Assembly: GCA_038049695.1 (NCBI GenBank)
Contig: CP142457.1
Coordinates: 61,686,501 to 61,750,500, forward strand
Length of the DNA: 64,000 nt
Origin: Cinnamomum chago
Lineage: Eukaryota; Streptophyta; Magnoliopsida; Laurales; Lauraceae
Reading direction: 5' to 3'
Shown here: piece by piece, positions 17,168 through 58,800 of the stretch
How the letters are laid out: the number at the start of each line of letters is the position of its first letter
How positions within the stretch are numbered: position 1 is the stretch's first letter
Translations under genes and position numbers: made by a program
The notes under the pieces: model-generated
Told to the model about the DNA's origin: nothing
The model's input: the letters and a program-made list of their open reading frames with translations, nothing else
Databases searched by the model: none

Positions 17168-19690
17168 ATGAATAGCACCATGTTTTCTATTCTTCTCTTC
17201 TTGCCCATCATTGTCTTTCTCTTCTTTTTCCTTCTCCGGAAATCCAATACAGGAGGAAAGAAATGGACTTTACCTCCCGGTTCCTTAGGCTGGCCTTACA
17301 TAGGAGAAACCTTCCAACTCTACTCTCAGAACCCAAATGTTTTCTTTGCTTCCAAACAGAAAAGGTATCTCTCTCTCAGTTGTACTATACAACATTGCAC
17401 AGTAAATTAAAGAGAAGAATGTGATGGGCCTTTTTTTTTTCTTCTTCCTTAATATGCCTTAAAACTAAAACAGAAGAAATGGGCCCCTTCCATTTTGCTA
17501 CAGTTCAAGTGCCATTCCTATCCTTTCTTTGTTTAATTGCCTTTTTTTTTCAGATATGGCCACATATTCAAGACCCACATATTGGGGTGTCCTTGTGTGA
17601 TGATCTCGAGCCCTGAGGCAGTGAAATTCGTTATGGTCACTAGAGCTCATCTGTTCAAACCCACCTTTCCGGCGAGCAAAGAGCGAATGCTGGGTCGACA
17701 GGCTCTCTTCTTTCAGCAAGGAGAGTACCACTCCAAATTGAGGAAGCTTGTCATGAGGGCAGTCATGCCGGAGACACTCAGGGGCCTAGTTTCAGATGTT
17801 GAAACGATCGTAGTAAATTCTCTTGCGTCGTGGGAAGGACGTGAAATCAACACTTTTCAAGAGATGAAGACGGTAAGCTTATTTCCATATGATTACTAAG
17901 CTTACCTCTTTCCTTCTTTGTTTTTCTTCAACAGAGCACCATAACCGACTCTGTTTCTCTTTAGAAAAAAAACAAATCAATAGCTTCGTGATGAATTACT
18001 ACTACAAAGGCATGAGGGTTCCTTATGAGTAACTAGTAACAACCTCAGCTGAGGTTGAACTTCAATTATAATCCATGATAACTTGTGTTTGCACGAGTAA
18101 TTTAGCTCCCTCAGAGTGCCCCTGCCTTTCATTGATGTACCCAAGTTTTGGGGAATTCAGTTTGCTTCTCAAAGCTTAGGAAGCAAATCAACAAATTTTA
18201 TTTTTTTTTAAAAGATGATTTTTAAGTTAGTTTCATTGGAAATGATTAGTGGGACTTACATGGTTTTACAAATCTCTGTCTTCTCACTTGCCCTTTTTCC
18301 ATCATCTTCTGCCTTACAGTATGCATTCAATGTGGCTCTGCTTTCCATATTTGGAAAAGATGAGGTTCTCTACAGAGAAGAGCTCAAAAGCTGCTACTAC
18401 ATCCTAGAGAAGGGTTATAATTCGATGCCCATCAACCTTCCAGGGACCCTCTTCCACAAGGCGATGAAGGCGAGGAAGCAGCTGGCTCGCATCGTGGGTC
18501 AGATCATATCTTCTAGGAGGCAGATGAAGGAAGAGAGAAATGACCTGCTTGGGTCGTTCATGGGACAGAAAGAAGCCCTCACTGATGAGCAGATCATCGA
18601 CAACATGATCGGTGTCATCTTTGCCGCAAGGGATACCACTGCCAGCGTCCTTACATGGATTGTCAAGTACCTCGGAGAGAATCCAAGCATCCTACAAGCT
18701 GTCGCTGTAATCATCTTAATCCTCTAAACACCTCAACATTTCATGATAACTAGGCTGTCTTATTATTCCTCTCCTGGTTAAAAGAAACGAATTCCAGTCT
18801 GAATTTTGTTGTTTTTACTGTATAATTACAGGGGGAACAAGAGGAAATCATGAAGAGAAGGAAGGGTGATGGAGAGAGGTCACTGACATGGGCAGACACC
18901 AAGAACATGCCCATAACCTCAAGGGTGATTCAAGAGACAATGAGGGTTGCTTCAGTCCTATCTTTCACTTTCAGAGAAGCAGTGGAAGATGTGGAGTATG
19001 AAGGTTGGTATTCCAATTCCAAATCAATTTGAAAGGATTTTGGGAAATTGCAATGAAACTAGCAGCAGCAGTGCTGTACTCCTTTTCTATTCAGTTAAAA
19101 TCTCATTTTTCTTTGACCTTTTCAGGTTATCTAATACCAAAAGGGTGGAAGGTTTTGCCCCTGTTCAGGAATATTCACCACAGCCCAGAAAACTTTACTG
19201 ACCCAGAGAAATTTGATCCCTCCAGATTTGAGGTACTGTTCATTGAACTTGCTAAAAGAAGAAGAAAAAAAAAAACAGAGGAACCCAAAGATGGAATATT
19301 GGAATAGCTGTTATTGGCTGGGCCTACTCCATTATTTTGGTGATTGAATTGTTTTGATTTGTTGGTCTTACAGGCTGCACCAAAGCCCAACACTTTCTTG
19401 CCATTTGGCAATGGCATCCACTCCTGCCCTGGAAATGAATTAGCAAAGCTGGAGAAGTTGGTCCTCCTCCATCACCTTACCACAAAGTACAGGTAATCAC
19501 TGTTAAACATCTGTCAGTCCATTCTTTTTTTCTTTTTGTCTTTATGTGACATGGATGATGAGTGACTGACTCATTTGGTTTGTTTTTAAATTACAGGTGG
19601 TCTGTGATGGGCCCACAGAGTGAAATACAGTATGCCCCATTTGCACTTCCCCAGAATGGGCTCCCCATCAAATTCTCTCTCAAGACATGA
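17168..19690 (+). CDS. CYP707A: abscisic acid 8'-hydroxylase, cytochrome P450 CYP707A family
   Basis: This enzyme starts ABA catabolism: it hydroxylates ABA at C-8', giving phaseic acid, at the ER membrane. Seven coding exons (17168-17364, 17554-17872, 18320-18706, 18832-19003, 19126-19232, 19374-19492, 19597-19690) join with GT-AG introns and kept phase into 1395 nt, 464 residues, near the family length. An N-terminal hydrophobic anchor (about residues 5-23) precedes the proline-rich hinge [14 protein letters not shown]. The I-helix oxygen-binding motif AARDTT lies at about 274-279, the K-helix ETMR at 336-339, FDPSRFE near 388-394 and the haem loop [13 protein letters not shown] at 402-414, with Cys412 as haem ligand. 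Long stretches match what I remember of CYP707A ([33 protein letters not shown]). The start is the first ATG after a TATA box. It looks intact; the CYP707A1-A4 subclass is not resolved. Confidence 0.95.
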
Positions 19691-21199
19691 AAATCTGATC
19701 CCAATTCCGCTGGTTTCGAATGGATAGAGAGGATTATAGAGAAACCTCTTGGAAATATCTGGTCCATGACACTCCATACAAAGGGAGCATCTTGAAATTA
19801 ATCTCAGATTCTGACAAGAGACTTGGGATGGTTAATAAGGCTTTTCCACCACAGAAGAAAGGTGGCGTAGAGACTCGAAGAGTCAACACAGGAGGATGAT
19901 CTTACAATTAAACTCAAATTCCCTATGTATTTCCTTTTTTTTTTTTTGGGAGGACGAAGGACTCCCAGAAAAAGAATTAAGGGTGAAAATGCATATTAAA
20001 AGAGCAGTAGTTAAGATTTATTGCTTATCCACCAACCCCAAAGGGGAAGGGGATATGAAATTTGTACAAGCCTTTTCATATTAAGAGTGACAGAGGATGT
20101 GTTGCTGCAAATGTATTCAAGTGAAGAACATTTCCAACTACTTTTGTCCAATTTTCTTTTATCTTCTTAGTTATGACTCACTCACACACTCTATATAAGT
20201 CCCTAACTACCGTAACTATGGTGGGGTTTTAATCCTAGTTGTTTTTGTGGAAAAGAAGGTGCCTCAACATTGAGCTAACAATGGGTTCACTCTAATTGAA
20301 CTTCTAAATGAGCTTAGTTCAGCTTGATCACAGATATGATGCTTCTTGCAAGGTGCAATGTCTCCCATTTCAACCGCACCTCAAATCTACACATCCTGCC
20401 TCCCTTTGGAGGACTTACATCTCCAGATGGACCTCTTTGGGATATACCTTCTGGACACAAACCCACTATTATATTCTCCACAACCACTACGAGATTGACC
20501 TTCCAAATACTGCAATAACAAAAATCAAATAGAAAATCTTATTTCCAATTAGTAAATACAAAAGGCAAGGAATGGCAACCGGTTGGATTTAGGAAAGGGT
20601 TAATCCTAACCTAGCCCACCCAGAATCACACCTGTCTTGCTCCATACCTGCCTCCTTCACAGGTTTAGAATACGTGATATTAAATCCTATCCATGACAGG
20701 CACGGATTAGGTGTGGGTGATGTTGCCTATAGACGGTGTAAGGGGAAGATTACCCTAGCCAACTGTGGATCTTGGTCTTTTGAGAAATGTACAAGGTCCA
20801 ATTTTAAAAAAATAATAAAGTGATAAATTAAGAGAAATTCATTCGAGATGGTCTAAACATGTTCAATGCAAGCCACATGTTCAATTTTTGCAAGAAGGGT
20901 TGTGAATCACTTTCACACCTTCGTAGGCGTGAAAATTCTAGAGCATAAGAAGACATCTCAACACAGGACTCACAAAGCGCCCCTTCAGTGCTGGGAATAC
21001 AAAATTCATATGAACCAAACTCAGTAATAGCCCAATAGGAGACATCAACTACGTACTAAATGCACCATTATCATCAAGTGGGTAAGAAGTGGAACAAAAT
21101 ACATTAATAATCCCAAGCACACCAATCTAGAAAGGACAATTTATTTCTCCAGACAGTTTACCATCTTGTAATAATTTCATAAGATGGAAAGTAGAAATC
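19691..21199. other. intergenic between CYP707A and the kinase pseudogene
   Basis: The first few hundred bases are probably CYP707A 3'UTR. No further gene seen. The two genes converge here. Confidence 0.5.
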
Positions 21200-21268
21200 A
21201 GAATGATCCATGTCAAGAGTAATTTCATTAAGAGGGGATGGGGAAATCAGATTAAACCATGGCAATTG

Positions 21269-22238
21269 TGTAAAGTTTTTAGTTGGCTAATTCATAGGTG
21301 TTTGGACAAAACAGGGTTTCTTAAAATCTTGTATTGAGTCTAGGAAAGGACTGTAAGAGTTCTAAACAGAAAGTGATCTAAAGAGCTCAGATTCTGCTGA
21401 TTTGAATTGGTCGCTCGAGCGATCATACATCCGCTCAAGCGGACCAAATAGAGTTTCATTCGCTCGACCCATCAATGTTATGGAATGAAGTTTTGAAGTT
21501 CGCACGACAATCGCTCGAGCGAACCTCTCACAGAGAGTTGTTCGCTCGACCGCATGTTATTGTTCGCTCGACCATCGATCCAGTGCGCTGTTCGTCTGTT
21601 TCCAGAGTGCAGGTCGCTCGAGCGAACCCTATGACCGCTCGAGCGAACCTGGAAATTCTAAATTAGGAAGAACTCCTCTTATTAATTTCAATGAAGGAAG
21701 TTACCTGTTTGAAGAAGCCTTGGTTGCATGGAATTTCTCCTATAAATAGGCTTTTCATCTCTCCTCTCTACACAACTCTGAATTAGAAGGAATCTATGAG
21801 TGTGAGAGTTTGAGAGATCCATTGTTCTGCCCCAAGGCTGCCATTACTGTTACTATGCTGATGATTCAAGTCTTGGTTTGATTCCACTACTTCTCTTGAA
21901 GACTCTGTTGTTCAAGCGCGATGAAGGTGTACGGCGAGCAGTCGGCAAGTTCTATATAGTCCTTAGGTTGAGTCAGCAACTGGGAAAGGATTGTGAGTTT
22001 TCTTATAACTTTCAATTCATAGTGCTTGGTTGTCTGTTGGTCTAGACGATAATGCCCGTGGTTTTTTTCCCGAGTAGGGTTTTCCATGTATAAATCCTGT
22101 ATCCTTCTCTCTCGTGTGGTTTGATTGCTTTAACCTGGATTAGGGTTAACTATTAGATTAATCACATTTTATAGATATTCGTCTGAGATCGTATTAGTGG
22201 GACCTCTGCCTGTGTTAAGGAAAGATTAAGTATTTTCA
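21269..22238 (+). mobile_element. solo LTR, probably Ty1/copia
   Basis: A 970-bp unit begins TG (21269) and ends CA (22238), flanked by perfect 5-bp duplications AATTG (21264-21268 and 22239-22243). Inside are a TATA-like CCTATAAATAGG near 21749-21760 and a leader-like tract in the second half. No internal retroelement genes are present, so it is a solo LTR left by recombination. It interrupts the last exon of the kinase pseudogene. A cluster of CGCTCGAGCG-type palindromic motifs lies at about 21410-21655. The superfamily is inferred from size and style. Age cannot be read from a single LTR. Confidence 0.8.
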
Positions 22239-23353
22239 AATTGGCTACGCCGTCATCATTCATTAGAGGTGGCCTTGCTGCTGCCTGAGAGCTCCTATTG
22301 TCATATGAGCCATCGTTTCAGCCACATCAGAAACTCGGTCTGAAGCTTTGTTTAAACCTGTAACAGCACCAAAATGCTACATTAGCATATCGATAGAGAT
22401 GGAGATGAAAAGGCCATTCAAGAAGGCAGAGTATATGCTCTCCAAACAAATATGCATGTAATAAAATCCCTAAAAAACCCTTGACCCAGAGCTACTTCAA
22501 AAAAGAAAAGTTACTGGAACTGGGCCAAAATAAGCAGCACAACATTAGGAGGCCCAACAATAAATGTTGAAATAGAATAGGGAAGCTGCGATATATAGGC
22601 CCAAGAATTAAGGTTGAGATAGAACACGCGATACATCCCCAAACCCTCTGTTTCATATGAATGCAGAAGTTTCTCTTAATCATGCACAATATACATACAT
22701 AAAAATAGTTCTATGAGGGCACCTGGAAGAGACATGAGAACTTTACTAGTATAGCACAGAAGGGTCATGTCGTAATGGCTGTATATAATTAGAAGAATGA
22801 CATAGGAGCACAATAAAATAGTCCTAGCTCACCTGTATAATTACTCTGCCTAAAGTACTAATCTTCACAGAACATAAGTTGCTTGCAGGTTTTGCCTTTA
22901 GATAAAGTTGCAGAATATCTTTTAGAACACGTCTGACCTAAAGCTCCTTCCACCCCAGCTAAGGATTTTAAGAATAATACAAGTGTCAAAATTAAAATGT
23001 GACAATTGAAATGCAATGGTTTTCAACCAAAGAAAGTAGATTTAAGACAAACCATGTGGAGTTCTAGGGGCTGCTGCTCTCAAGCAAAGTGATGGTGGAA
23101 CATAGGAGCAAGGCTGCTATATCCAAAAGTAATAAAAATGCACTCAAGATAGATTTTGGGAAAAGGAAAAAAAAAAAAAAAGGGAAGGATATGATGGACT
23201 ATCTCACTCATTTCATCTTGACTCTATAAAAAAAATTTGTCACCTGGAAGAATGAATGCTGAAGGGTCTCTGCTCCTGTAGGCCTCTTGCACGGATCCCA
23301 TGAACATAGAGACTGAAAATACATAAATGAATGCATGAGTAAGGAATTCTCAT

Positions 23354-23576
23354 TAACCCCAAGGGGTTGGCCGAGTGGTCAGCACCACTGTTCCTCTCTA
23401 TTCTAGAGTTAGAGGTTCTGGTATCGACTCCCGGTTCCCTCCTCTTAAGGAACCGAAGGTTGAGTCCACTTGTGCTACCACCTAGGGCTCACAGGGGTTT
23501 TATCCGGTTTCTCTCTGGGCCCGGAGGGAATAATCTAGTCCAAAGGATTGAGAACCCTCCGTTAGCAAAAAAAAAA
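23354..23576 (+). mobile_element. SINE with tRNA-Leu/Ser-like head and perfect 15-bp target duplication
   Basis: The head GGTTGGCCGAGTGGTC is a box A of tRNA-Leu/Ser style, and GGTATCGACTCC about 60 bases on serves as box B. A tRNA-unrelated body follows, ending in GAACCCTCCGTTAGC and a poly(A) of about ten. It is flanked by the direct repeat GTAAGGAATTCTCAT (23339-23353 and 23577-23591), the mark of LINE-driven insertion. It lies between kinase exons 23244-23312 and 23783-23848, so it is intronic to the dead gene. Confidence 0.9.
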
Positions 23577-24554
23577 GTAAGGAATTCTCATCAGCAACTT
23601 GTAATCAATCCCAAGGACATAATCCCATATCCCAGAAATGCTGAAATTCCATCCCATAAATTTGCAATGACAGCCCCTAAAAAAAAGGTATTCAATGGGC
23701 TGTTCACAGAATACTAATTTGGTAAATAACACAAAACATGGGCAAAAAACTATGTATGCAAGCTTCTCCAAGTTGTACTCACTGAGATGAGGCTAATTGC
23801 ATCTTTACTGGCTGATGGTATTAGAACTGAAAGATGGAGTATTGAAACCTGAATGGTCAATTTATCAACAAACGAATTGATCAAGTCTAAGGATTCTCAA
23901 CAGAATTTAGACCCATATGCTCGGAACTATACATACATAAATTTATGCAAATCTAACGTTTAGGGTCAAAAATCAAAGGAAGCCCAATAGAGAGCATGGT
24001 TTGGTTCCTATGAAATAAGAAAGTAAAACGGTAACAACGCAACAACAGATAAATTTGAGAAAAGAAATATCTGTGAGCAAGGTTCTGAAAATTGGAAGTG
24101 TCGTAAATCTTTCTAGGAATTAGGATTGAATTAAAGCATTGAATCATATTGTAAAGTATTTAATTTTTAGATGCAGAAATATTCAAAAACAAAAAACAAA
24201 AACAAGAAAAAAAGACTAAATACTATAATTCATCCATATCATCAATACAGTGGCAATCAAGTTTACAGGTTTTATATATGTTGCTATGGAATTCTGTAGT
24301 TAAGAAAACCACATATTTAACTGCTGAATCCCAGAAGCTATGCAATAATGAAACATTGTTTTGGAAATCACACTAGATGTTCAGAAATTTTAAGTGATAT
24401 CCAAGTGCCAAAAATCGATAACTAGTCATGAAATGAGAAGCTAGAAGAATCTAAGCCCATATTATGTAGTGTTTCATAATTAAGAATCATGACCTCAATA
24501 TTAAGCTGCCGAGCTAGCTAACAATAAACAACACCATATTCAAGTCACAACTGT

Positions 24555-24715
24555 GCCAATCCATTGGTAGCTCAGTGGTGGGGGCACCTCCCTCTCCACA
24601 GAAACGAGGGATCGATCACTGGCTGTACTTGTAGCACTAATGGTTAAGAGAATTAGGTTAAGGTGTGTGTGGGTGTGAAAATGTGAGTATTTACCAGAGG
24701 CCCCCAAAAAAGAAG
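24555..24715 (+). mobile_element. tRNA-derived SINE, short or diverged copy
   Basis: GGTAGCTCAGTGGTGG (box A) and GAGGGATCGATC (box B-like) lie at the right spacing, followed by a T/G-rich body and a short A-rich end. Near-identical flanks AAGTCACAACTGTG (from 24542) and AAGTCAAACCTGTG (from 24716) look like a diverged target duplication. Its A-rich end abuts the 3' border of kinase exon 24725-24834. Confidence 0.6.
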
Positions 24716-25366
24716 AAGTCAAACCTGTGGAAATTCATCTTTTGATCGCTCTTGCAAGTTGCAGTCCTTCAGCCCAAGAACTCTGAGTGGGCCTACCTAT
24801 CACACTGCATATTTTACAAATCTCATCTGCTTCACTGCATAGTGTAAGGAAACTATATCAGCCAAATAAAGCCCAGAAATTCTGAGTGGAATCATCTACA
24901 TTGGCACTTAGCATAAGGAAACTATATCACAAACACCAGTAAAATCTTTGCATATAGTACAGCTTACATATAAGCATACCTTGACCCAGGAAAAAGAGGG
25001 TGCAGTGTAAACATCTCAGCCATGATAGCACCCATTGCCCACATGTCTGAAAGTATAATTGAAGAAATGATATGAACACGATCAAAAAGTAAATTGTGAA
25101 TAATACAACCAAAATCCATTTCATTTTCTACTTAGATTGCAGTCATCCATATAAGAACAATATAGAGAAGTTATGTAGATACCCCAACGAAGGTTTCTCG
25201 AAAGTCAAGCTCTTTAGACCTCTCACTGATATCAAGAAGTTGTGTTGGTATTGAATACACTGTAGGATTAAACCAGGTTAGTGCAGTTGTATGCAATGAG
25301 TGATGAGATATAAAATACAATTAGATAGCTTACTGATATAACTGTAATATAGATCCAACACCAATT

Positions 25367-25620
25367 TCAGGACAAATTTGTATCAGGCTCTCTCTGATGA
25401 TCATGTAAGAGAAGTTGGCCACTATGAGCAGTTGACAAATGAAACCAGAATGAATTCTCTGAGAATGAGAAACCACAAGCCAAGAATCTCCTGGGATAAC
25501 AAGAATGAATACTGGCTGCAGTGTGACCAAAGGCACATGTGCTCCATATCTTGAGTGATTTAGTTGAGCCCTCAAGAACACAGTGGAGTGCGATCTGGCA
25601 GAAGAAAAATAACAAATTTC
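25367..25620 (-). other. possible exon fragment of unknown type
   Basis: After a good acceptor (TTCTTCTGCCAG) the minus strand reads IALHCVLEGSTKSLKIWSTC, AFGHTAASIHSCYPRRFLAC, GFSFSENSFWFHLSTAHSGQ, then LLLHDHQREPDTNL and a stop. No family is recognised, and two other frames are also open. It does not fit the kinase 5' exons expected here. Confidence 0.2.
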
Positions 25621-26044
25621 ACAAGGCCGCACCCATTATCAAAATCAGTTAGCACAGGCAACAGGTCATAAGCTCAGCACATAAAGAATAATAACTTGAT
25701 ACTGGTCAAAATGTATTAAACATGGAAAAAGAAATCTACCCTACATTTTGAATGACCATGATACTAGTACAAACATATTATGGAAACAGAAATCTGCTCG
25801 ATGTCATTTTGACAGTGCTACATGCAGTTCTAAGTACATCTATATTGGGTCACCCTCTCATGCACACCCTTATCATGCAAACCCCATGCGAACTCCCTTT
25901 TGGGGCCCACCAGAGGCCATGACAATCATGGGAAGGTGGAGGATCGAAAGGCCTGGATGGCACCAACCTATTGGCAAAATCTCAAGGTCATTACATCATC
26001 CTAACCCCTTGATCCACAGCCCCCAAGTTTAATAGTTTGAAAAT

Positions 26045-26296
26045 TCATTATTTTTCTATGATTTCAATCCAATGGTGAGTAACATTTGGAAGAGTGACAA
26101 ACCAGGGCTTGTGACTAATTCGATAGAGAGCAACAATATTATCAGAAGGCTCTTGATTGGAAAACACAGAAAAATGGCTTTCCAGTTGGGTGAAAAGAAT
26201 AGTTAGGCCTGGATTAGCAAAAACAGGCGCAACAAAAAAGCCCAAACTTGCTCCCCTTGAGAAACTCTCCGACTGAAAAGAAATGGGACCCACTAA
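26045..26296 (-). pseudogene. open coding-like segment on the other side of the solo LTR, unidentified
   Basis: Minus strand, immediately past the LTR, a possible acceptor (TTTCTTTTCAG) precedes an 80-codon open frame: SESFSRGASLGFFVAPVFAN, PGLTILFTQLESHFSVFSNQ, EPSDNIVALYRISHKPWFVT, LPNVTHHWIEIIEK, then TAA. It may be the last exon of the gene whose other piece is at 28552-28960. Function unknown; it could also be chance. Confidence 0.3.
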
Positions 26297-26301
26297 TTTG
26301 A

Positions 26302-28546
26302 TGTCACGACCCGGACCCGATATCACAGTCATTAGGGTTAACCCCCGGGTCGCGATGTTAATCATACTTACTCCCGTAAACCCCGAATTAATCGAAGTTA
26401 AACGAAGTCTACAAGGGATCTTGCATATGTACCTGTCAATGTACATTGCGGAATATACAATAATATACATTGACACCTATTTAACAAACTCATTTGCATT
26501 GAAATGTAAATCTCACTTTACATCGTTTCAGTTTTCCTATATCAACCACTGCATATTTAAAATACAATGCAAGGGACATCTTTCTAATACTTACAATACC
26601 AAAATGAATATATAAAATACTTTCTAAAACATTTCCAAAATATTCTATGCTATCCTCTCTCAAATCACGTCCATTCGGCTAAACCTCCTGGATGTATCGA
26701 ATGGGCCTCCTCTGCTGGCGGGGCGGTCTTGGAGGGACCGGCACGGGCAACTGAGCCTGTAACATCATCAGTAATACCATGAACACGACGGTTCAACAAG
26801 ATATATACATATGATGATGGCATGTTTGACAATCCCTGACAATTCATTGTTTAACAGTTCTAAACAATTCCAATATAATCCTTGTGTAATTACAAATACA
26901 AATAATAATGACAATGTCATTAATAGCTACACTAGTATTGGTTTCAACTCCATTCAGTTCTTCCAAACGGAAGCATTTCATATTCCTTTCAATTCTTCCA
27001 AAGGGAAGCATTTCATATTCATTCAATTACATTCAGCATTTATTAGGACTCGTCAGTCCTTTGACCTTTCGGTCCAATGCGGTGAGATCTCCCAATGTCT
27101 TGATCAGAGATCACTGGTGTCTCACGGAGCTCTGGACGCTCCCCAATCTCATCTACTGCAGTAGGAATAGTCATTCCAGTTACTTTTCGTAACCGTTCAT
27201 TTATCACTTCATTCAATTCAATTCAATTCAATAAGGAGTTCGGAAACCGCTAGGTAGTGCCAGACTTATTAACAATTTCTATTAATCTCAATCTCATTCT
27301 AAACCAATCCTCTAACCAACCCTTACGTGAACGGTGGTTATTAATGCATGTATTACTATCGATGACATTATTTTTAGTGACATTTATGCATTGAAATAAC
27401 CCTCGTAGCACTTAGGAAGGTTTAAACATGACTAACATTAATCTCTAAGCTTAAACTTTTAATCTCGGAAAGTCGGACATTAAAATGCACTTTCCAAAGA
27501 AATTCAGTGGGCCGGGTCGACTGCAGTTGTAAAGGAAAAAGGAATGAACAGTATTTTGGTCAGGCCATTTCGGGCCTGACCCAGTGGGCCCGGTCGACCG
27601 GCCACATTGCAGAAACAGAACAGTGTTCTGTTCTGCAGTGCAGTGAAGGGCTTTCATCCCTTGTTCTCTTTGTACCTGCTGAACCTGATTGACACTCATT
27701 TTACGAACTTCACAAAAGTAATCCAAGACTATTAATCGAACTAATCTATACCTACTTATCTTAATCCATTACATTAATTATATAACCTAAATAAGGTTCT
27801 AAAATCCACAAATCACTTTAACATGTGATTCATCATTTCTTTCCATTAAAATCAATGAAAATACCTTAACAAGCATAACCATATGTATTTACTTGCCTTT
27901 GTTTGAAGGTTGATAGAGACAAACCCCTCCTTTGCTTGGATTTAGCTTGGATTGAGTGTAACTTCCTTAACTTGAAGCTTTGATTTCAATATCACTTCAA
28001 GAAGAGGATGAGAAGGTGTGATTCCTCTTCACTTCAATCACCCCAACACACACTTGATGAGAAACGGAGGAAGAAAGAAGAGAAAATGGTGAAAGAAGAT
28101 GTTGCCTAGGGTTTCATGAGATGAATGAAGGCATTAGGTTATATAAGCTTAAGTTTTGCATTAAGCTCCCCTTTAATTCCTTTAATTCCAATTCAAGTCA
28201 ATTCGATGTCCATTTAATCCGATATTCATCGAATCCATTCAAACCTTTTATGAAATTCGTCGTACTCGTCGAGATACACATGTTGGTATCAAGACTTTCC
28301 AACTTCGACAAAATACATACAAATCCGTATTTATACACAATTCCTTCATTTGCTCATTTGAGCTTCATTTCCACTCTATTCCATTCTTAAGCTTAGTTAC
28401 TATTTCATTAAGTCTCAGTTAGTCATTTAGGCTACTTTCAATTCATTTAGGCATTAAACTACCATTAATTCACTTAAATTGACTTAATTAACCTTAAGCT
28501 CAATTAATTAGAGTTAATCGTGATTAACTCGGGACGGAGCCTAACA
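26302..28546 (-). mobile_element. solo LTR, large, probably Ty3/gypsy
   Basis: Read on the minus strand, a 2245-bp unit begins TGTTAGGCTCCG and ends GGGTCGTGACA, flanked by perfect 5-bp duplications TTTGA (26297-26301 and 28547-28551). No internal retroelement region is seen. It is the same family as the unit at 40735-43205: shared start region, shared ATACGGA-rich segment with a GATACCAA block, and shared end. It splits coding-like sequence of an unidentified minus-strand gene. Age cannot be taken from a solo LTR. Confidence 0.85.
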
Positions 28547-28551
28547 TTTGA

Positions 28552-28960
28552 CAAGCTGCATACCGCCGGGCAAGGGACTGGGCACATCTAGCTATGCATT
28601 TGGCCAAGTCGTCAGGCCAGCTATTAGCTCCCAGAGAAACTGAAGCATTAATTTTCTCCATCCTATCCAGGAAATGGATATCCACACCATCCATCTCACA
28701 TCTTCCTCTACCAGTAAAGGGGTTGGACGAACCAACTAGAACCACATGGATGGCACCGTTGCCTATCTTTGCTGCAGACCTATTCTCATGCCTACAAAAG
28801 TAGGCTTTGAAAGAGACAACTGATCAGTATAACACCTTATTCCTGCAACCACAGAGGCATTGATGAGATCAGCACCAGGATCCATGCCTCTCGCTATTTC
28901 AGACATATGCGTGTTGTGTAGGAAGGACAATGAGATGGTAGGAAGGACAATGAGATGGTA
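28552..28960 (-). pseudogene. coding-like segment of an unidentified gene, interrupted
   Basis: The minus strand holds two well-composed stretches: ARGMDPGADLINASVVAG, IRCYTDQLSLSKPTF (about 28920-28810), and, in another frame after a possible acceptor TTTTGTAG, HENRSAAKIGNGAIHVVLVG, SSNPFTGRGRCEMDGVDIHF, LDRMEKINASVSLGANSW, PDDLAKCIARCAQSLARRY. They run into the solo LTR at 28546. I do not recognise the family. Composition and the frame change suggest true exons joined by an intron. Whether any product is made is doubtful given the LTR and the LINE upstream. Confidence 0.45.
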
Positions 28961-28999
28961 GACTATTTGCTTGTGCATTACGAGTTCTCTTATTCTTTG

Positions 29000-29780
29000 T
29001 GGTGTAGGTGTGGAAAGAAAGAGACAATATAATTTTCAGAGGGTCTTTGTTGCCTGTGGAAGATATAGAGCAATTGGTGGTGGTTCAGATTGCAAAATGA
29101 GCTTCCTTCAAGTAGGAGTTTGACATTGCAAAACTTTACAGTGTGTTGTATAACTGGGAGGCTTCCTTATATTGTAGGGTAAAGAAGATAAAAAAGGTGG
29201 TGCATTGGATTCCTCCCAATGTAGGGGTGTTGAAGTTTAATGTGGATGAGGTAGCTAAATGAAAGCATGGGCCGGCGGGTATTGGTGAGGTGCTTCACGA
29301 TAGTGGAGGGCTTGTGTTGGTAATGTTTTCCAAGCATGTTAGGATTATGGAGTCTAATGAGGTGGAGGTGTTGGCTATCCTAAAAGCTGTTTGAGTTTTT
29401 GCCTCTTCCTCATTTCATTCAAGGTTAGAGGAAGAAAGCAATTCTCTCAATGTTATTTCGTGGGTATCCTCTTCGGCTGTCATTCCTTGGAGATTTCAAT
29501 TTTACCATAATGAGATTAGAGCTTCAATGTCCTCGATTCAAGTGAAGTTTCAACATGTTGGGAGATAAGGAAATGATTTTGCTAATTCGTTAGCTAAGCA
29601 AGCAGTTGATAGGTCTTCTAATTTGGTGTGATGTTTCTTTGTTTTTTCCTTTTCCTTTTCATGGTATTATTCTTTTATACCATCGTGCTCTTGCTCTGTT
29701 TTGTTTGTTTTGGTGGGCTTCTTGTATCTTGCTTTCTCTTTTAATATAGTTTATCATTACTGATAAAAAAAAAAAAAACT
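29000..29780 (+). mobile_element. LINE (L1-type) 3' fragment with RNase H domain remnant
   Basis: From 29208 the plus strand reads WIPPNVGVLKFNVDEV, then AGIGEVLHDSGGLVLVMFSK, ESNEVEVLAILKAV and GNDFANSLAKQAVDRSSNLV: the RNase H domain found at the end of plant L1 ORF2. The first Asp (NVD) and Glu (NEVE) of the catalytic set are kept; the later Asp appears as Asn in NDFANSLA. In-frame stops show it is dead. A 3'UTR (CTTTCTCTTTTAATATAGTT) and poly(A) at 29766-29779 close it. The 5' limit is approximate. Confidence 0.75.
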
Positions 29781-32589
29781 AATTCAACAGAGAGGGTGAG
29801 TGGGTGTGAGGTTTTAAGTTGATCATTGGGGCACTAGGTGGGCCCCACATACATGGTGAATCTCCATGCTACCATCTGTGGAGAGGACTGCCGTATATAT
29901 AAATACACACGCACGCACAAACAGCAAGGTTAGAGTGTCAACTGGTAGATCCAGTCGAAAAGAGAAATGCATATGGAACCTATTTTTGGATATGATAAAA
30001 ACTTGGATCCAGTTCCTAAAAATAGTTCTGAATATTTGTGGATCTGAATCCAAATCAAGACATGTCCAGATTTGATAATATGGATCTGGACCCCACTACA
30101 GCCCAAATATACAAGTCTTGGCTTACAACCCAACTTAAGCCATTAAACCTCTTTTCAGGTCCAGATCCAACTATGGTGATCAATGGATGTCTGATTACCC
30201 TGTTGTTTTTGAAGGTTCCAACCTGAGAATCCAGGCAAGGCCCCCCTTTTAGACCCAATTAATAATCATTAATCTTTCAGATCAGACTAGTTGATCATCT
30301 CATCTAATTTTCATTTCTCTTAACAAGTGGGTCATTGTGGGACCCATACACACGCTGTTTAGGTTCATGCTACATATCCAGGTTAGTCAAGGAATGCCCC
30401 AATTTATCATGAATTTTCAGAAACATGTAATTGACCTTTGGAAATTCAAATTGTGTTTAGTTGTCAATCCAAAAATAAGGAGAAAAAAAAAAAATGGTTA
30501 CTGTCTCTAGCATCACACATTTCCTGGGCCACTCATTTAGGAGTTACAAGGAACCAAACACCCCCTAAGAAGATGCCAACTCCAGAATCATAGTAACCTG
30601 AGAGTAAACTGAAATATTAGCATGGCTAAGAAAAAACCCCTAAACTCCCAGTTCTAGAATTGAAACAAATCCTTGAACAGGAATGGAATTCTTCAAATCA
30701 CAAGCCCTAGGAGTAGGAACATATACACCAGACATCAGACATAACAAGAAAACTCAAGCATAGTTCACAAGGATTAGAACTATAAGCAGAGAGGCCCTCG
30801 ACTTTGTTAAAGGAAATTCCCAATACAATAATATTCACTAATCACTAACAACGTGAATCCCACAAACAAACCTGAACTTCTTCATCAGAAGAAAACACAA
30901 TGAGTTGGGGAAATTCATGGTCCTCTGGTTATTCTAGGGTTTCCATTCAACATATTCCATTTCCAGTCACAAACCACAGCCCAATTTAACATATGAATCA
31001 TTGATCCGAAAGTGCCCTAATCACCCAAACTGATGCTCTCGGATCAATCAAACCCCCCCAAATAAGCAAATTAAGCACCACCCATCAATCATCAATCAAT
31101 CGAAAGCACAAAAAACCCCACAAGGAAACCCTTAAACAATCAAAATCTTCTCAATAACAAGAATCAAAATCGAGAATTTGCAAACCCTAGAATTAACAAA
31201 ATCAGAATCATTAAAAACAACGGAATGAAACGAGCACAAATCCTCTGATTCGAATGATCAACAGAACCACCAAAATCATTGAAGAATTCTGGAATTCGCT
31301 CGTAACAGAATCTGAAATTTGATACCTCTAGGCCATCAGTACTCTCTTCCTCTTCCGCAATCCAAGAACCAAAATACAAATAAAACACAGACCCAAATTC
31401 TATTTATAATTTCTATTTTATTTACTTAAATTATTATTATTTTCAGTAATAAAGGTTTGAAGTAAAATCTCATTGGACCTTCTGAAGATAAAAAAAAATG
31501 CCCTCAAATTCTAATATCCATAAAAAAAACCCTAACTTTAAGTTTTTTTTTTTTAGTCGATATCTCTGGTTAGGGCTTTTTTGTTTTCATCGATTTTGAA
31601 ATTTGAGGGTCTTTTTGGTATCCACGGGATTGAAGGAAATTTTCAGTGGAGGTTTTTTTTTTTTTTTTTTTTTTTGAGATAATTAGTCAGAGGTCTCTCG
31701 TTACGGTTTTGTAAAGGCGACATATTTTGGCAAGAGGTCCACATCAGAAATTTGGAATTTCCAAATTTCTTTTTTATTTTACGTAAAAAGATGAGAGCAT
31801 AATAGGTTGAAATGGGAAAAAAAAAATTCTTACTACTTTATTGATGTTGTATGTGATGAAACTCCATGGGCTGAATTACATGGGAAGAGTTTTATTTGTA
31901 GACCATTAATCTTATCTAAACAATAACAAGTAATTCTATTTAGATATGGAGGTGACACAGGTTGGCCGGCCAACAACCTCATTACACAGGACTCATCGTC
32001 ATGGTATACATAAAAATCATAGACCCCTCACTTCTTGGCATACGGATTATACAATTGATTGATTGAACTAATGATTATTAGGCAGTTCATTACAAATTTC
32101 ACTCCTGAATATTTTCGATAATATGAAAGTACTCAGTAGGAAAAGAACAAATCAAAAACAAAAACTTGACTGCCATTGATATCTTAAGCGTGTTTATTGC
32201 ATACAAGAATCTTTCAGCACTGCTACTTGGCCCGACCTGGGGGACCGCAACCCTGGGATCCAACGGTCCTCCCTGGGGATCGGGCCAGAACCCGGTCCCC
32301 CAGAATCGGGCTACTTAGACTTTTTCAGAATCTTTTTAGTAGTATATATCATCAGTTCCATTACTTAAAACAAAAAAGAAGACGACTATTTGCAGTAAAA
32401 AAAAAAATTAAAAATTCAATGAATTGAACCAGATATCTTTCTTATGAATGAGATGCCCTTGTGACTCATGACCCCTTTCTTCTATCATGAAGAGTGGTCT
32501 GCAGCAGTCTACAATGAATTTGAAACAACAAATATAGATGCAATTTCACTCCAGGAGCCTCTAGAGGGGCCTACTTTCACAGTTTTGTT
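29781..32589. other. intergenic downstream of PMT; leader-like segment near 31.3 kb
   Basis: No coding region. On the minus strand about 31385-31320 a stretch ending GGCCTAGAG followed by GTATCA resembles a non-coding first exon with donor site, perhaps of the lost or broken gene to its left. The 82-bp palindromic insertion at 32229 lies near the right end. Confidence 0.4.
32229..32311. mobile_element. 82-83-bp GC-rich palindromic insertion with TACTT flanks
   Basis: Imperfect inverted ends GCCCGA..CTGGGGGACCG and CGGTCCCCCAG..TCGGGC enclose a GC-rich centre. Direct repeats TACTT (or CTACTT) flank it at 32223-32228 and 32311-32316. It lies about 280 bases past the PMT stop codon. Similar in build, not in sequence, to the unit at 46501. 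Confidence 0.6.
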
Positions 32590-36898: not shown

Positions 36899-36917
36899 CC
36901 TTTCTTTTGTCAGACTA

Positions 36918-39232: not shown

Positions 39233-39240
39233 GTTAAGTG

Positions 39241-40524: not shown

Positions 40525-40642
40525 GTTTTTTTTTTTCTTTTTTCCAAGGGAGGGTTAGGCTAATCCCTCCAGACCCAAGAGAGAAGCCAAGTAAAATTTC
40601 CTGTGGACTGGACCTTCGGTTCCTAACCACTCGTCCAACCCC
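40525..40642 (-). mobile_element. SINE, minus-strand copy
   Basis: Read on the minus strand: GGGGTTGGACGAGTGGTTAG (box A-like head), GAACCGAAGGTCC, TTTTACTTGGCTTCTCTCTTGGG, GGAGGGATTAGCCTAACCC, then an A-rich tail that appears as the T-rich run at 40527-40540. It shares its body with the SINEs at 9720 and 23354 but is shorter. Confidence 0.6.
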
Positions 40643-40734
40643 TCGTATAAGCTTCTTAGGATTCAAAGAGAGTACTATGCAAAATATTCAGTTGAAAAAT
40701 AAGAACTCAAATCCGGAAAGTATCTTTATATTCT

Positions 40735-43205: not shown

Positions 43206-43210
43206 ATTCT

Positions 43211-43554
43211 TTATCTTCTTCAATTTGAAAATACACGTACAATATTTCTTTGCATCTTTTTTATGTGTTTCTATGTCTATTTTATTTGCATGAGTATTGT
43301 CTTCTTACTTTAACCAAGAATACAATGTTTTCTTTATAAAAATCAATCTCTAGTGACAGTGGATAACTTACTTGAAACAAAGAATGTATTGCTTTCTTCG
43401 TAAAAAATCAATCCGATCTATGAGATGCTCCTGTGATGAGGTTGAGCGTGATGAAGCTGATGTTGAGATCGAGAGATAAAAGTGTTGCAAACTTTGTTCT
43501 TGGAGACAGATAGAGATAGAGAGAGCTGTGAGTTTCTCATTGCAAACTTGGAGG

Positions 43555-43629
<75 letters not shown>

Positions 43630-45652
43630 GAGCATGAGATCAATTCTAAATCTTTTCTTATCTAGATGGGCAACTTGTTGTTTGAAAATTGAATTTAAAA
43701 TTTCAATGTATATGTGATTGAGTCCAGCTCAAAATCGAAATTGAGAGTGGAATGCAATTGCATAAAATTGGTATTCAATTTCGAAATCAAATACCCAAAA
43801 GTCATATATAGCGTCCATATAAGCTGGGGCCATAGATCATTAAAAATGGGCCCACCGTTGAGTTTCTATTTCTCTTTTTTTTTTTTTACAATTCTCCACT
43901 CACGATGTACCTCTTCACCTCTAACAAGTTTTGAAAAGCCATAATGTACATGGGTAAAACCGTCATTCTCACTTTTATAGGAATCTATTTTATTTTCATT
44001 TCGGTTACGTTTGATAACAAAATTTGTAGTGAAAATATTTCCGCTTTCACGATTTTGTGCTGAATCTAAATTTGACAATCACATATCATTGTTGATTTTT
44101 TACTCCTTAGATCTGATCCCCCCAATGAATATCCTCAATTGAAAGGAAATAGGTATAAAAGCCCAAATCTCACCCCTATTCGGAAATCATCCCTCCTCTC
44201 AATATCCCTCGCAAATGACTCCCACAAAGAAGGTCTTCATTAATGTGTCTCTCTCTCTCTCTCTCATTTATCCGTCATAGGCCTCATATTAAGTGGGTTG
44301 TTTCATATCTACCGAGTTTGGTGTTCAAAACCAAATTATATCAATCGGGGTGCCCTAAATGGACGATTTATAGGCAATCTATTAAATATCTATTCAATTG
44401 CTACCCCAAACTTATCTCTTAAAATCTATTAATCTCTACCCCATAAAATCTTTCTAATTTGTTAAACTCGGCATGCCTACTCGCAACCAAGTGAAATCTC
44501 TTTATTCATTCCCATGATTTCTTTCTAAAATCTCTTTAATCTCTTTTAATAATTTCCATGTCCATGCAACATCTACTAGCTCCTAAAATCTCTTTGGTAT
44601 TAATGTCTTACATTTATCTTTCTTGATTTGATCTAATTGAGAATCAATTATAAATCTTGCTTTAAAATGCCATATCTACCCTATGATATGCAATTTCTAT
44701 TCTCTCTCATATGGCTACTATATAAGGCCCATCACCGATTTCTGGAAGATGTTTTTCGTGCTTTTTAATATTGCTAAACCCCATAGTTTTTTTTTTTTAT
44801 ATACATTTACTTCTATTCTAATTTTTACATTCATAATTATTTTACTTATTTGCTTAAAAATTATATGAAAAATCAAAATAAGTGGAAATTAGAAATTTGA
44901 ATTTTGTTTATAAATTGTGTGAGTTAACTATTTTTTTTTCTCCTATATATTTTAATATATAAAATGTAGCAATGATAAATGATATAATTGTTTTTCATTT
45001 AGATTTATTTCCTTTTCAATAATATGTGACAAAAACTTGATATACTTTTTTTACTATTAAGCCTGAGCTTAGCACGGACTTTTGTTGCTAGCATGGATTA
45101 AAAAAGTTTTCCCGTTTTCACAATTCTAACCAATGATGAAATGTGATGAATTCTTAATTATAAGAATCCTCAGCAAATATTTTTCTTTCCCCAGTAAGAA
45201 ATTTTAAATCCTCCGCAGGTATTCTCCTCCTGTTACCAAACCTACTCTTTCTACCAACTTTTTTCTCACTCCGCAAATTTAAGGCGGCAATAAGTGTAAC
45301 CGTGTGATTCGTTCGTTTCTTCATTTTTCAAACAGCGTGGCAGTTCTGTTTGCCGTTTTCTGACTCGATAGTAAAAAAAAAGGGCCGCCCAAGATTCTCC
45401 CAAGATTCTTTTTCCACCCAAGATACTCTCGATCTACTCTTAGTTTGACTTTCATACTCGTACGTCGATACTGATGCACAGATATCTCCTCTTATCCCCA
45501 CTCATTCTATATGATCCATTGCTTTTGGGAGGTGGCAGATAGATGTGGGCTAAAATCAATTGCAGTAGGAGCAGAATACAAAGGGAGAGAATACTACTCT
45601 TTTGACTCTTCAGTTACCTTTCATCAGACTCCCTACTCTTCTTTTTCTCTGT
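43211..45652. other. intergenic upstream of DUR3
   Basis: Contains the GA microsatellite, poly(T) runs and AT-rich sequence. No TATA box could be chosen with confidence; the DUR3 leader probably starts between 45450 and 45600. Confidence 0.5.
43555..43626 (+). repeat. GA microsatellite
   Basis: About 70 bases of pure GA upstream of DUR3. Any open frame here encodes only Leu/Ser repeats. Confidence 0.95.
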
Positions 45653-52026
<6,374 letters not shown>

Positions 52027-55000
52027 ATCATCCAATCTGCATTTCTGGAAATTTCGTTGTGATCGTTTTAGTGCCGGAGGCTGTGGTCCAGATTTGAAAG
52101 CATGTTGCAGACCACTGCATACAAGTAGGGTGAATCTCCTTTGGCACATTGTATAGACATGGTGAGTTATGATATCTGCTAAAGGGACTTCAACCTCATG
52201 TATCAGAATCTCACCTGTTTGTCTTTCCTCAATAAATAGTACATGCCTGTGTTGTGTTCCTTGCCTTGGTTTCCCGTGGTTCCATGTAACTGAAACTGTG
52301 ATGTTCATGGGATAATAAGCACCCAAGTTAATATATAGTGTAAGGACCTGTGAATAACTGTCCAGAACTCCACCATTGCCAATTCATGCCATCAAACGTT
52401 AAATCCATTAAATCAAGTGCTACTATAATCTGGTGGAGCTGATTTTTTTTTTTATCCACCTTGTCCATGAGGAGACCTTTCAATCTGCCCTTCTCACATG
52501 GGGAAACTTGAATCTAAGTGGGCCCCTCCCGCTGGACTGCATATAGCTTGTAAGCAGTCTTCCAATAGGTGAACATTTCCCAGCAAATCCAGTAGTTTAT
52601 GTATCTCTAATTAAGCTTGAAGTTCCTGAACTGTGCATCTAATAGACAGTCAGGAATCGCAAAATGGTATGCCTCATTCATAGGACCTGTGCACCCAATA
52701 TAATATTAACATGCTAGCTGCTCGCTTCAGTTGGCCAGGAAGACTCTCACTGGGCTTTTGAAATCGGATTTGACCATCCATTTCTTCATCAGAGAGACCA
52801 ATCACTGTGATGTATTTGTCACGTGAGACTTCTTGACTGTGGGCCACCATTGTCAGTTGCCTGCTGCTTCAATTTAGCACCACTATTAAAGGCACAAGTG
52901 GGGCTCACCTTTGGATAATAAGATATAATCGGTTTTCATCTTATGGATTTGGGCAATATTTATGTCTCATCAGAATGGGTGATGGGGGTGTGTCGACTGT
53001 TTGAATTTTTGAATGGTGGACCTCATACGAGGGCCTCTTATAAAGGCACTTTTTACCTCTCTCAAAGATGAAGTGTACCATACCAAAGACCGAACAAGTA
53101 TGGGGTGCTACAGAGTCCAAGCTATTCCCCCTGTCATCTTAAGTGGACCAATCACAGTCTGCCATGTCACTATGGGAATGCCTACCTTTCACGTGGACAG
53201 GTGGCAGCCATCCCCACAATGAGTGGTGGACTATAATTGGTCCACTCACAGTCACCTTGGGTCAAAAGGCTAGAGGAACCCAATGTACAGTAGACATGAA
53301 TAACCACCAAATCACCCAAAGAATCTTCCTATATCCTTGGTAAAAGCCCATTTCAGCATGGTCTGGCCTGATTGACTAAATAGGTGGGCTTGGCCTTAAC
53401 ATTTATGGCTCATGTCGGGCTTGAACTTAAAACTTTTTAAGTGCATCTCAAGGTGGAGTCCGCTGGTTTCTTGGCACCCCCGCCCAGGGGGCTGAGACTC
53501 TACAGCAACTTACTAGAAATCTAGATAACTCAAAATGGAGGCTTGTATATGGAAATTAGTCAAACTTTTAATTTAGTTAGAGATTGGCCATTGTCAGATA
53601 ATGACCCTTCTGCAATTCTCTATCATCAGGATTGAATGATTCATAGTAAAGCAATTGTTTCACTTCATAGATCTCAGTTTCATTCTGCAAAGGTCGCATA
53701 CTTTCATTAAGAAATCATTCTGCAAAGGTCGCATACTTTCATTAAGAAATGAAGTGTCATTTTTGTGAACCAGCTATTTACATCTCCAAAAAGTATGCCT
53801 TGTGGCAACTCTTACCAACAAGGCAACCATGCGCACTTGGTGAGACCAAGTTGAAATTAAAAATAACATCTCCTTCAAGAGGCAAGAGCACATGAGCACT
53901 ACTCATTATTATCCTGGACTTTGGGCAGCAAAACATTGAGATTTCACTTGCCAATTCAGTTGATCAGGCAAATGAATCATGCATTTGCTTGTAAACCAGT
54001 TTCATTAGTTTAGATTAACCCAAATATGTGAGATCCATATGAGCTGAGCACTAATGGCTAGCTGAAGGTGACCCAGCAGGGTCTCATAGATAAAGGCATC
54101 CATTGATCTTCATGATTGACCACCCTTACCTTCTTATCACCCCACTATTAGACTGTAGATTTCCATCAATGAAAGCAGGTCGCCTAATGGTCATTCTATT
54201 CAATTCAAGGATACAAATGCCACTTCATTATTTCCTATTACAATAAATACCACCACTGCCTCTATATAGAACTTTCTTTTGGTAAACATCTATAAAGAAT
54301 TAGAACCAGTTTAGATAAACGTGTCTTCCTGGTTACCCTGAAGCAACTTCCACTTGACCATGCAGAGGAAACTTCAATAGAGAAAAAATAGAATTTGCCT
54401 ATAAGAGCACGTACATAAGGTAAAGGTACCATTGTAATCCGCAAACAGGATCATGAAACAAGTGGATAGCTTAATTTAGTTCGTGAGGCGCACTTAGATG
54501 CAAATTTACCCATAAATAGAGGGCAATTGAAAAGGTTTCCTCTTGAACAAGGTAGCTCCTGCAGAGTATACTAGCTTAAGGACGGACCTTAAAAATTTAA
54601 TGGCATCTTAACCATAGATTTTCTGCATAAAATTTGGACCTGATTCGAGACCATGGAATAAAAAAGTATCCAAGGGACTGCACTGATGAAAGGTGGCCCA
54701 AGTAGGCCCCTCAGTGCTGGATTGCACTTGCAATGGCTCGTCCAAGAACATTTTCCATAAGTGGCTATCTACTCGTCACATCACTAATTACAAAATTGAG
54801 CCATTTAGCTACCAAGACCAGAGCAACTTGAAACAAGCAGGTAGCATCACACCTGTTTATCCACAACCTTAAAAGAGTATAATGATACTTGTTTTTCTTA
54901 GTTGTTGAAGATTTACCTAAATTAGATTTAGATAATCTTTTTTCTTTATCAAATTAGGATTGGTTATCAATGGCTTTGTTATTAACTTTGATCAAATTAG

Positions 55001-55155
55001 GGTTGGTTATGAATGGCTTGATCTCTATCAGAACTAATGTACCACAAGCAAAACACATGTAAGCTAAACAACCAAGTTTCAAGCCAACACTAGATATTAC
55101 TGTTTTGTTCATAACATAAACTGAAATAAACATCACTAAGACAAGGGTAAGAAAA
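52027..55155. other. intergenic between convergent DUR3 and ACBP
   Basis: DUR3 3'UTR at the left. An inverted pair AGTGGACCAAT/ATTGGTCCACT at about 53142 and 53234 and a 36-bp tandem near 53680 are the only structures seen. No gene. Confidence 0.5.
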
Positions 55156-58100: not shown

Positions 58101-58800
58101 GCTTGTATGCTGCATCCGGACCACCCAAAATAGGTTCCAAACACATTTCTTCCGGGTCAAAAACTCCATATAATTGGAGAATCGGGATACCCGTTTGCAT
58201 CCCTATGTCCAAGGGCAGTTGTACTGTAAAAACCCCTCTGATACCATGATAAAATTAAGAGATTTTACTAAATCTAAGCTGTATCCCATTTTATAGAGCA
58301 GAACGCAGAACGCTAAAACTTCATAGCAAGAGGACTTTCCCAATCTCTGCATGTCTGACAACTACTTCCGATTAGAAAGAAAATCCAATGCAATCAAAGA
58401 AAAGGGACGATGATCCAAACAGTTTAAGGTCTGGAAGATTAAACTAAAACTTTATCTCTTTAATTCGATCTATCAACATTACATAATTTCAAGAGAAGGA
58501 ATTGCAGAACCAGAGAATCAGATCAAACAACTCTAAAAAAAAAAAAAAAGCCCTTTTCAGTCACTGCACGTTGAAATCTCGCTAGATCTGAGAATAACAC
58601 AACAGTTCCAAGATCCGATTTCTTAGATACATGTAAAAATCGCTCAACTGCAAACGCAGAAACAGCATACGAAGTATCAAACATGGAAACTTCAGATCAA
58701 ATTCCATTCCATGACATGAACTGAGATCTGTAGCTAGGAACTTGAAATTTTCCAAAAAGAAGAAGAGAATCGGATAAAATCAACGTACCTTCAAGCCCAT
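55156..58800 (-). CDS. ACBP6: 10-kDa cytosolic acyl-CoA-binding protein (ACBP6-like)
   Basis: Binds medium- to long-chain acyl-CoA esters in the cytosol, buffering and shuttling them between plastid and ER. Minus-strand exons 58789-58800 (only MGLK), 55796-55913, 55333-55395 and 55156-55241 keep phase over 279 nt, giving 92 residues, the usual plant size. The single ACB domain fills the protein: LILYANYKQATVGPVN, TTRPGMFNIKDRAKWDAW, then STDEAMSDYITKVKQL. Residues matching the ligand contacts of animal ACBP are Tyr30, Lys34, Lys56 and Tyr75. Asn32 in YANYKQ replaces the Leu of the common YGLYKQ. Intron 1 is 2.9 kb and contains a MITE. The very short first exon is supported by the MGLKEEFEE reading. 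Looks intact. Confidence 0.95.
57759..58205. mobile_element. hAT-like MITE in ACBP intron 1
   Basis: Inverted ends TAGGGTAGCAAATGGG and, from the right, TAGGGATGCAAACGGG bound 447 bp rich in GGGTCC/GGAACC-type words. Such ends are common on non-autonomous hAT elements. The 8-base flanks do not match well, so the target duplication is decayed or the border is off by a few bases. Confidence 0.6.

Follow-up and report, generated by a model that had tools for sequence, protein, structure and literature searches.

A CYP707A–PMT–DUR3–ACBP neighbourhood with a decaying kinase relic in Cinnamomum chago: a probable case of gene shedding after genome doubling

Gene loss after polyploidy is a well-known process, and Ku and colleagues are said to have described in 2000 a 'network of synteny' between tomato and Arabidopsis. 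Within fractionated paleopolyploid blocks of angiosperms, one segment can unite genes that elsewhere are split among duplicated segments, and gene relics are to be expected. Passages of one study, for example, describe Amborella contigs with genes distributed among two or three subgenomes of Vitis (PMC3219971).

The segments most readily compared with the block described here are an Arabidopsis alpha pair, At4g19110–19230 and At5g45340–45430, both of which carry a MAK-like kinase and a CYP707A gene; PMT21/ERD3 lies on one of them and DUR3 on the other. By AGI number, the order on chromosome 4 is kinase (19110), PMT (19120) and CYP707A (19230), and that on chromosome 5 is CYP707A (45340), DUR3 (which we take to be At5g45380) and kinase (45430). 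CYP707A1 and CYP707A3 are among the pairs assigned to the alpha whole-genome duplication (PMC5604286, Table 2); a table and its footnote in PMC2075485 place At4g19110 and At5g45430 outside Blanc and Wolfe's list but take synteny and homology as a sign that they are recent duplicates that were retained. As duplicates of one another, these segments amount to one ancestral observation rather than two. ACBP6 (AT1G31812) is on chromosome 1 instead, where, judging from the gene numbers, PMT20 (At1g31850) is presumably its neighbour. One listing likewise gives At1g31850 as PMT20, and one classification gives ERD3 as At4g19120 (Group V, 10 members, among 29 Arabidopsis PMTs). A literature search found no paper that treats the Arabidopsis PMT, DUR3 and ACBP loci jointly, and none of the three Arabidopsis locus ranges is named in PMC12377758.

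Partial versions of this linkage occur in other plants. On rice chromosome 2 are a CDKF kinase (Os02g0700600) and OsABA8ox1 (LOC_Os02g47470); the latter, which we take to be Os02g0703600, is near the kinase. The grape CYP707A gene VIT_18s0001g10500, on chromosome 18, is five numbers away from ABF2 (VIT_18s0001g10450), and the paper that lists them names just these two genes there, not the block; this site presumably corresponds to another Arabidopsis region, that of CYP707A4 and ABF4, and thus neither supports nor tests the block. On tomato chromosome 8, an ABA 8'-hydroxylase 3 (Solyc08g075320, given only as a P450 in PMC5449478), a urea proton symporter (Solyc08g075570, which PMC10061692 contains without a name; PMC13390592 has SlDUR3 without a gene number) and an ACBP matched to AT1G31812/ACBP6 (Solyc08g075690) follow one another by gene number.

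Gene content of the window

The window, that is, the whole stretch of 64,000 nucleotides analysed here, contains four intact multi-exon genes and one relic, which from left to right are CYP707A, the kinase relic, PMT, DUR3 and ACBP:

17168–19690, plus strand: CYP707A (ABA 8'-hydroxylase type P450), intact, 464 aa, 7 exons (17168–17364, 17554–17872, 18320–18706, 18832–19003, 19126–19232, 19374–19492, 19597–19690)
25046–23042, minus strand: MAK/CDK-like (CDKF;4-type) kinase relic that keeps introns and five exons from the C-terminal half (A 25046–24980; B 24834–24725, with an in-frame TGA; C 23848–23783; D 23312–23244; E 23113–23042, with a stop at its end)
22880–22975 (limits approximate), minus strand: possible additional exon encoding the relic's C-terminal tail (GVEGALGQTCSKRYSATLSKGK...)
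36898–32590, minus strand: PMT20/21 (ERD3)-type putative methyltransferase, intact, 599 aa, 7 exons (36898–36632, 36275–36127, 36016–35815, 35123–34913, 34557–33885, 33709–33632, 32809–32590)
45653–52026, plus strand: DUR3 urea-proton symporter, intact, 718 aa, 9 exons (45653–45850, 47090–47197, 47271–47366, 47497–47579, 47669–47889, 49417–49679, 50255–50493, 50580–51229, 51728–52026)
58800–55156, minus strand: 10-kDa acyl-CoA-binding protein (ACBP, ACBP6 type), intact, 92 aa, single ACBP domain, stop at end, exons 58800–58789, 55913–55796, 55395–55333 and 55241–55156

The CYP707A, PMT and DUR3 models give full-length open reading frames, and all 20 of their 20 modelled junctions are GT-AG. 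The spliced CYP707A model is free of internal stops and has a full-length P450 domain (PF00067, E 1.1e-72, residues 36–454) that includes the heme-binding region with its heme loop; its assignment to CYP707A follows what we take to be family motifs. The methyltransferase, which we presume to be of the PMT20/21 type, has a full-length Methyltransf_29 domain (PF03141, positions 2–506 of 506, E 2.9e-205). Residues 9–707 of the DUR3 model align to PDB chain 9x5u, which is named DUR3 (1269 bits; 554 of 704 aligned positions identical, 78.7%), and the gene is thereby predicted to encode a full-length urea-proton symporter. The ACBP gene starts with a 12-base exon at 58800, ATGGGCTTGAAG followed by GT, and three more exons complete its open reading frame; the product matches PF00887 over positions 2–76 of 76 (E 1.1e-27) and PDB chains 6kf8 and 5h3i at 139 bits.

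No further gene was found by a six-frame Pfam scan of positions 1–17002, 20001–32500, 37001–45500, 52030–55100 and 58801–64000, plus a few single-strand stretches; the same scan also missed the short exons of the kinase relic, so that it cannot serve to exclude other small genes or relics. Several candidates were dropped: DUF3915 and Atrophin-1 (weak matches, below cut-off, on GA/CT runs), Pro-kuma_activ (below cut-off) and Peptidase_C71 (E 0.13). A minus-strand open frame at 63487–63795 has no Pfam match, and its five PDB matches, at E 0.62–0.69, were taken as chance.

The kinase relic and its surroundings

A preliminary description of this DNA had listed five genes in the order given above. 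That order stands as long as the relic is counted, as do the four intact genes; the kinase does not stand as a gene, its C-terminal half being the only part that is certain. The evidence for this comes from tblastn searches in which the query was a hand-entered kinase sequence and in which 200 shuffled queries served as controls. For the C-terminal half, the top four matches score 51.6, 50.1, 46.2 and 36.2 bits, as against 26.9 bits for the best of the shuffled queries; the N-terminal half gives no match above 22.7 bits in the window, a level reached by 73 of the 200 shuffled queries. Moreover, an exact-motif scan of the window in six frames found zero occurrences of H[RK]D[LI]K and of DFGLA. 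The relic, whose best PDB matches are to CDK2, covers only positions 179–263 of the 263 in the Pkinase profile and lacks a complete kinase domain (i.e., glycine loop, HRD and DFG). The possible tail exon presumably resembles the tail of the MAK/CDKF;4-type family.

Three kinds of repeat or retroelement-like sequence lie near the relic and the PMT gene:

23421–23576: short repeat copy within the intron that separates exons C and D of the relic, from self-comparison
26363–28526: old repeat copy, inverted relative to 40755–43160
29242–29604, plus strand: RNase H domain (RVT_3), degenerate and interrupted by three stops, in the stretch that separates relic and PMT gene
40755–43160: second, inverted copy of the old repeat, from self-comparison

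The short repeat recurs at 9744–9896 and 10143–10248, with 75% and 81% identity. The old repeat pair brackets the PMT gene and consists of four matching pieces of 68–86% identity in a consistent inverted order. The RNase H domain (PF13456, E 1.5e-9, with the stops read as G) is probably a retroelement remnant.

The relic's introns retain GT-AG signals, and its five exons are in their original order. Because the introns remain, a processed retrocopy is ruled out as the origin of the fragment. It might instead have been transposed to its place beside the PMT gene (captured by a DNA transposon, for instance) and so not be a syntenic relic, as could be suspected from the presence of only an internal-to-C-terminal part and from the old repeats and degenerate RNase H domain nearby. 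We regard this as unlikely, however, given the ordered exons with their splice signals, the adjacency of kinase and PMT on Arabidopsis chromosome 4 as well, and the failure to find clear terminal inverted repeats flanking the relic among the 25 longest of 59 inverted pairs within 20500–32500 (these 25 being 20–37 nt long and 70–91% complementary, many of them A/T runs).

Age and rearrangement of the block

The linkage of the block's genes looks old. It could be a coincidence, or have arisen independently in the lineage of the window, inasmuch as gene density is low and just five loci were compared; this is very improbable, since parts of the linkage recur in tomato, rice and Arabidopsis. Under random gene order, each of these partial linkages would have a rough chance of about 0.0007–0.011, a range that assumes copy numbers and gene totals and applies to hand-picked examples rather than to a genome-wide count. 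Tomato agrees with the window in the order of CYP707A, DUR3 and ACBP, which there extend over 37 gene-number steps, a looser span.

The preliminary description went further, proposing that the window keeps the pre-duplication arrangement and that the Arabidopsis segments were sorted out of it by later loss. Shared ancestral linkage is borne out by the Arabidopsis pairs, tomato chromosome 8 and rice chromosome 2; the claim of a pre-duplication arrangement has only partial support, with the kinase half lost and the order different. A window that preserved all five genes in their ancestral arrangement, with Arabidopsis derived by interleaved loss alone, would account for the presence in one place of genes that Arabidopsis has on three segments, for a kinase that adjoins PMT both here and as At4g19110/At4g19120, and for the CYP-DUR3-ACBP order shared with tomato. 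Against it, the copy in the window is itself fractionated, having lost its kinase. Furthermore, neither Arabidopsis segment has the window's order, CYP-kinase-PMT-DUR3: among the genes compared, AGI numbers put the kinase at the greatest distance from CYP707A on both segments, and in the window it is the closest to CYP707A, so that loss alone cannot convert one order into the other, and the window does not have an order from which both segments could be obtained in that way. An intact ancestral arrangement is accordingly improbable. A single inversion would reconcile the window and Arabidopsis orders.

The window, then, is probably one copy of an old angiosperm neighbourhood of CYP707A, MAK-like kinase, PMT, DUR3 and small ACBP genes, the members of which were lost differentially after whole-genome duplications and of which the kinase decayed here. 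Following such duplications, copies of the neighbourhood would have shed different members in each lineage, in Arabidopsis leaving the members over three short segments; in the window copy, the 5' half of the kinase would have been lost while the remainder decayed in place, a loss presumably tolerated because another copy exists in the plant. The difference between the window order and that of Arabidopsis would go back to an inversion or to a relocation of CYP707A. Like other fractionated blocks, it unites genes split elsewhere; it differs in being a named five-family block with a half-lost kinase, whose gene order takes an inversion to match that of Arabidopsis. More tentatively, fractionation may still be in progress after the plant's own later doubling, with an intact kinase on a sister segment and the window copy losing its own, though we would put this at somewhat short of an even chance. 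If it is true, an inversion of the kinase-PMT-DUR3 stretch would predate or postdate that doubling and could mark a deep branching.

The window thus looks like an ordinary case of gene shedding after genome doubling rather than an untouched ancestral arrangement, and the general view is unchanged by it. That a block is 'uniting' does not make it ancestral, and both relics and gene order should be checked before such a claim is made. The block, which combines a gene of ABA catabolism with genes for urea uptake and a lipid carrier, provides one more worked example of a linkage group, one that may be older than the monocot–eudicot split.

Gene models and their setting

The preliminary description had placed five genes in order in this block. 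Full models were recovered, in that order, for CYP707A, a PMT20/21-type methyltransferase (PMT), DUR3 and a 10-kDa ACBP, but the MAK-like (CDKF;4-type) kinase assigned to the interval between CYP707A and PMT is represented by a relic only.

Intact genes of the block
17168-19690, plus strand: CYP707A, 7 exons, 464 aa
36898-32590, minus strand: PMT, 7 exons, 599 aa
45653-52026, plus strand: DUR3, 9 exons, 718 aa
58800-55156, minus strand: ACBP, start exon and three further exons, 92 aa, stop present

GT-AG is found at 20/20 junctions of the CYP707A, DUR3 and PMT models. The expected junction peptide is matched fully at 18 of these 20 junctions, and at 70/82 and 85/88 positions at the remaining two; because these peptides derive in part from the window's own frames and otherwise from family background, such scores are not independent proof of the models. 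Independent proof lies in the open frames and the splice signals. CYP707A matches the Pfam p450 family (E 1.1e-72), PMT matches Methyltransf_29 over positions 2-506 of 506 (E 2.9e-205), and ACBP matches its own family (E 1.1e-27). DUR3 residues 9-707 align at 1269 bits with PDB chain 9x5u (named DUR3), with identity at 554 of 704 aligned positions. The ACBP start exon at 58800, the end coordinate given in the preliminary description, reads ATGGGCTTGAAG and is followed by GT.

The gene content is plant-type. G+C stays at 0.34-0.41 in 4-kb bins across the 64 kb, making the window A/T-rich, and there is no tRNA gene and no Rfam family at gathering score. Upstream of CYP707A lies a long stretch (1-17002) without a recognisable gene, within which a search of all six frames that ignored stop codons, and is blind to short exons, found zero Pfam families at cut-off; there, at 13545-13671, a 63-bp unit is duplicated in tandem with 100% identical copies, perhaps a recent event. 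At the other end, 60774-62947 consists of nested inverted repeats, with AGATAATAAATGC common to both ends and a tandem array of ~170-bp units (62145-62632) inside; by its structure this is probably a non-coding DNA transposon. A minus-strand open frame of 103 aa (63487-63795), which includes HPSVNLTIPFGPYPLFNVRLLQATNETARTVWWQINDRG, resembles a conserved exon; it has no Pfam match, and its PDB matches are only at E 0.62-0.69.

The kinase relic

The MAK-like kinase in the window is no longer a gene. With a MAK-like query, minus-strand matches were confined to the query's second half, at 51.6, 50.1, 46.2 and 36.2 bits versus a top score of 26.9 among 200 shuffled queries; the best N-terminal match in the window (22.7 bits) was equalled by 73/200 shuffled queries. 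The exact motifs H[RK]D[LI]K and DFGLA are absent from all single frames of the window, a scan that an exon-split motif would escape.

Relic and adjoining features
25046-24980, minus strand: exon A, AG acceptor, GT donor
24834-24725, minus strand: exon B, AG acceptor, GT donor, in-frame TGA
23848-23783, minus strand: exon C, AG acceptor, GT donor
23421-23576: short repeat copy, within the C/D intron
23312-23244, minus strand: exon D, AG acceptor, GT donor
23113-23042, minus strand: exon E, AG acceptor, terminates in stop
29242-29604: degenerate RNase H domain, three stops, beyond the relic's 5' end

The TGA in exon B lies just upstream of that exon's donor and, judged against the family sequence, the defect resembles a single-base frameshift. 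When the exons are joined and the frame is switched at this TGA, they match positions 179-263 of 263 of the Pkinase profile (44 bits, cut-off 31.7), with CDK2 chains as top PDB matches. A processed retrocopy is ruled out as the origin of the relic because introns are retained, and no clear terminal inverted repeats surround it among the 25 longest of 59 inverted pairs. The short repeat also occurs at 9744-9896 and 10143-10248, the copies being 75% and 81% alike in self-comparison.

Gene order and partial linkages

AGI numbers ascend along each Arabidopsis chromosome. By these numbers the chr4 order is kinase (19110), PMT (19120), CYP (19230) and the chr5 order CYP (45340), DUR3 (45380), kinase (45430), so that the kinase is outermost counted from CYP707A in both segments, while the window reads CYP-kinase-PMT-DUR3-ACBP. 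On two counts the proposal that the window preserves the pre-duplication arrangement does not hold as it stands: the kinase has been lost from this copy, and the order disagrees with both segments. Since the kinase was lost, the block is itself a fractionated copy. The chr4 and chr5 segments are copies of one ancestor; combined by distance, a step that is itself an inference, they would read CYP-DUR3-PMT-kinase. One reversal of kinase-PMT-DUR3 exactly reconciles the window with this merged order, which is suggestive but not strong, as it is one of six orders for three genes. An old inverted repeat pair (26363-28526 and 40755-43160; 68-86% identity in four pieces by self-comparison) flanks PMT, and a pair of this kind could promote inversion by recombination; DUR3 lies outside this pair, yet is part of the inferred inversion.

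At1g31850 and At5g45380 are taken, as in the preliminary description, to be PMT20 and DUR3, and rice LOC_Os02g47470 (OsABA8ox1) is presumed to be Os02g0703600. Two papers mention PMT20 alongside At1g31850. The linked loci considered in tomato, rice and Arabidopsis are chosen examples; the chance of each such closeness under random gene order is roughly 0.0007 to 0.011 (copy numbers and gene totals assumed). A published table of P450 duplicates places the pair AT4G19230 (CYP707A1) and AT5G45340 (CYP707A3) in its alpha section (PMC5604286). At4g19110 and At5g45430 are listed as mutual duplicates (PMC2075485; also PMC3426882); they are missing from Blanc and Wolfe's analysis, and synteny and homology suggest retained recent duplicates (PMC2075485). 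ERD3 is At4g19120 (PMC2148111). Tomato Solyc08g075320 is annotated as abscisic acid 8'-hydroxylase 3 (PMC10100220), Solyc08g075570 as a urea proton symporter (PMC8952246) and Solyc08g075690 as an acyl-CoA-binding protein paired with AT1G31812 ACBP6 (PMC7352395); their gene-number order, CYP-DUR3-ACBP, is that of the window, is equally compatible with the merged Arabidopsis order and does not discriminate between the two. In rice, Os02g0700600 carries a CDKF label (PMC12325677), OsABA8ox1 is given as LOC_Os02g47470 and the number Os02g0703600 is present in the same paper (PMC10889564).

Probable fractionation of a linked gene set

In searched article texts (most data of this sort reside in supplements), no paper was found joining two of At1g31812, At1g31850, At4g19120 and At5g45380, and none among the matches listed is obviously about the CYP707A-kinase-PMT-DUR3-ACBP block. 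The arrangement is best read as the outcome of a standard process, in which a linked gene set would have been duplicated and different copies would then have lost different members. On this reading, loss of the kinase within the window took the form of removal of its 5' half together with point decay, amid old repeats, and a sister kinase copy may have made it tolerable. Outgroup segments with genes spread across post-polyploidy subgenomes are a documented pattern, as in a comparison of Amborella contigs with Vitis (PMC3219971).
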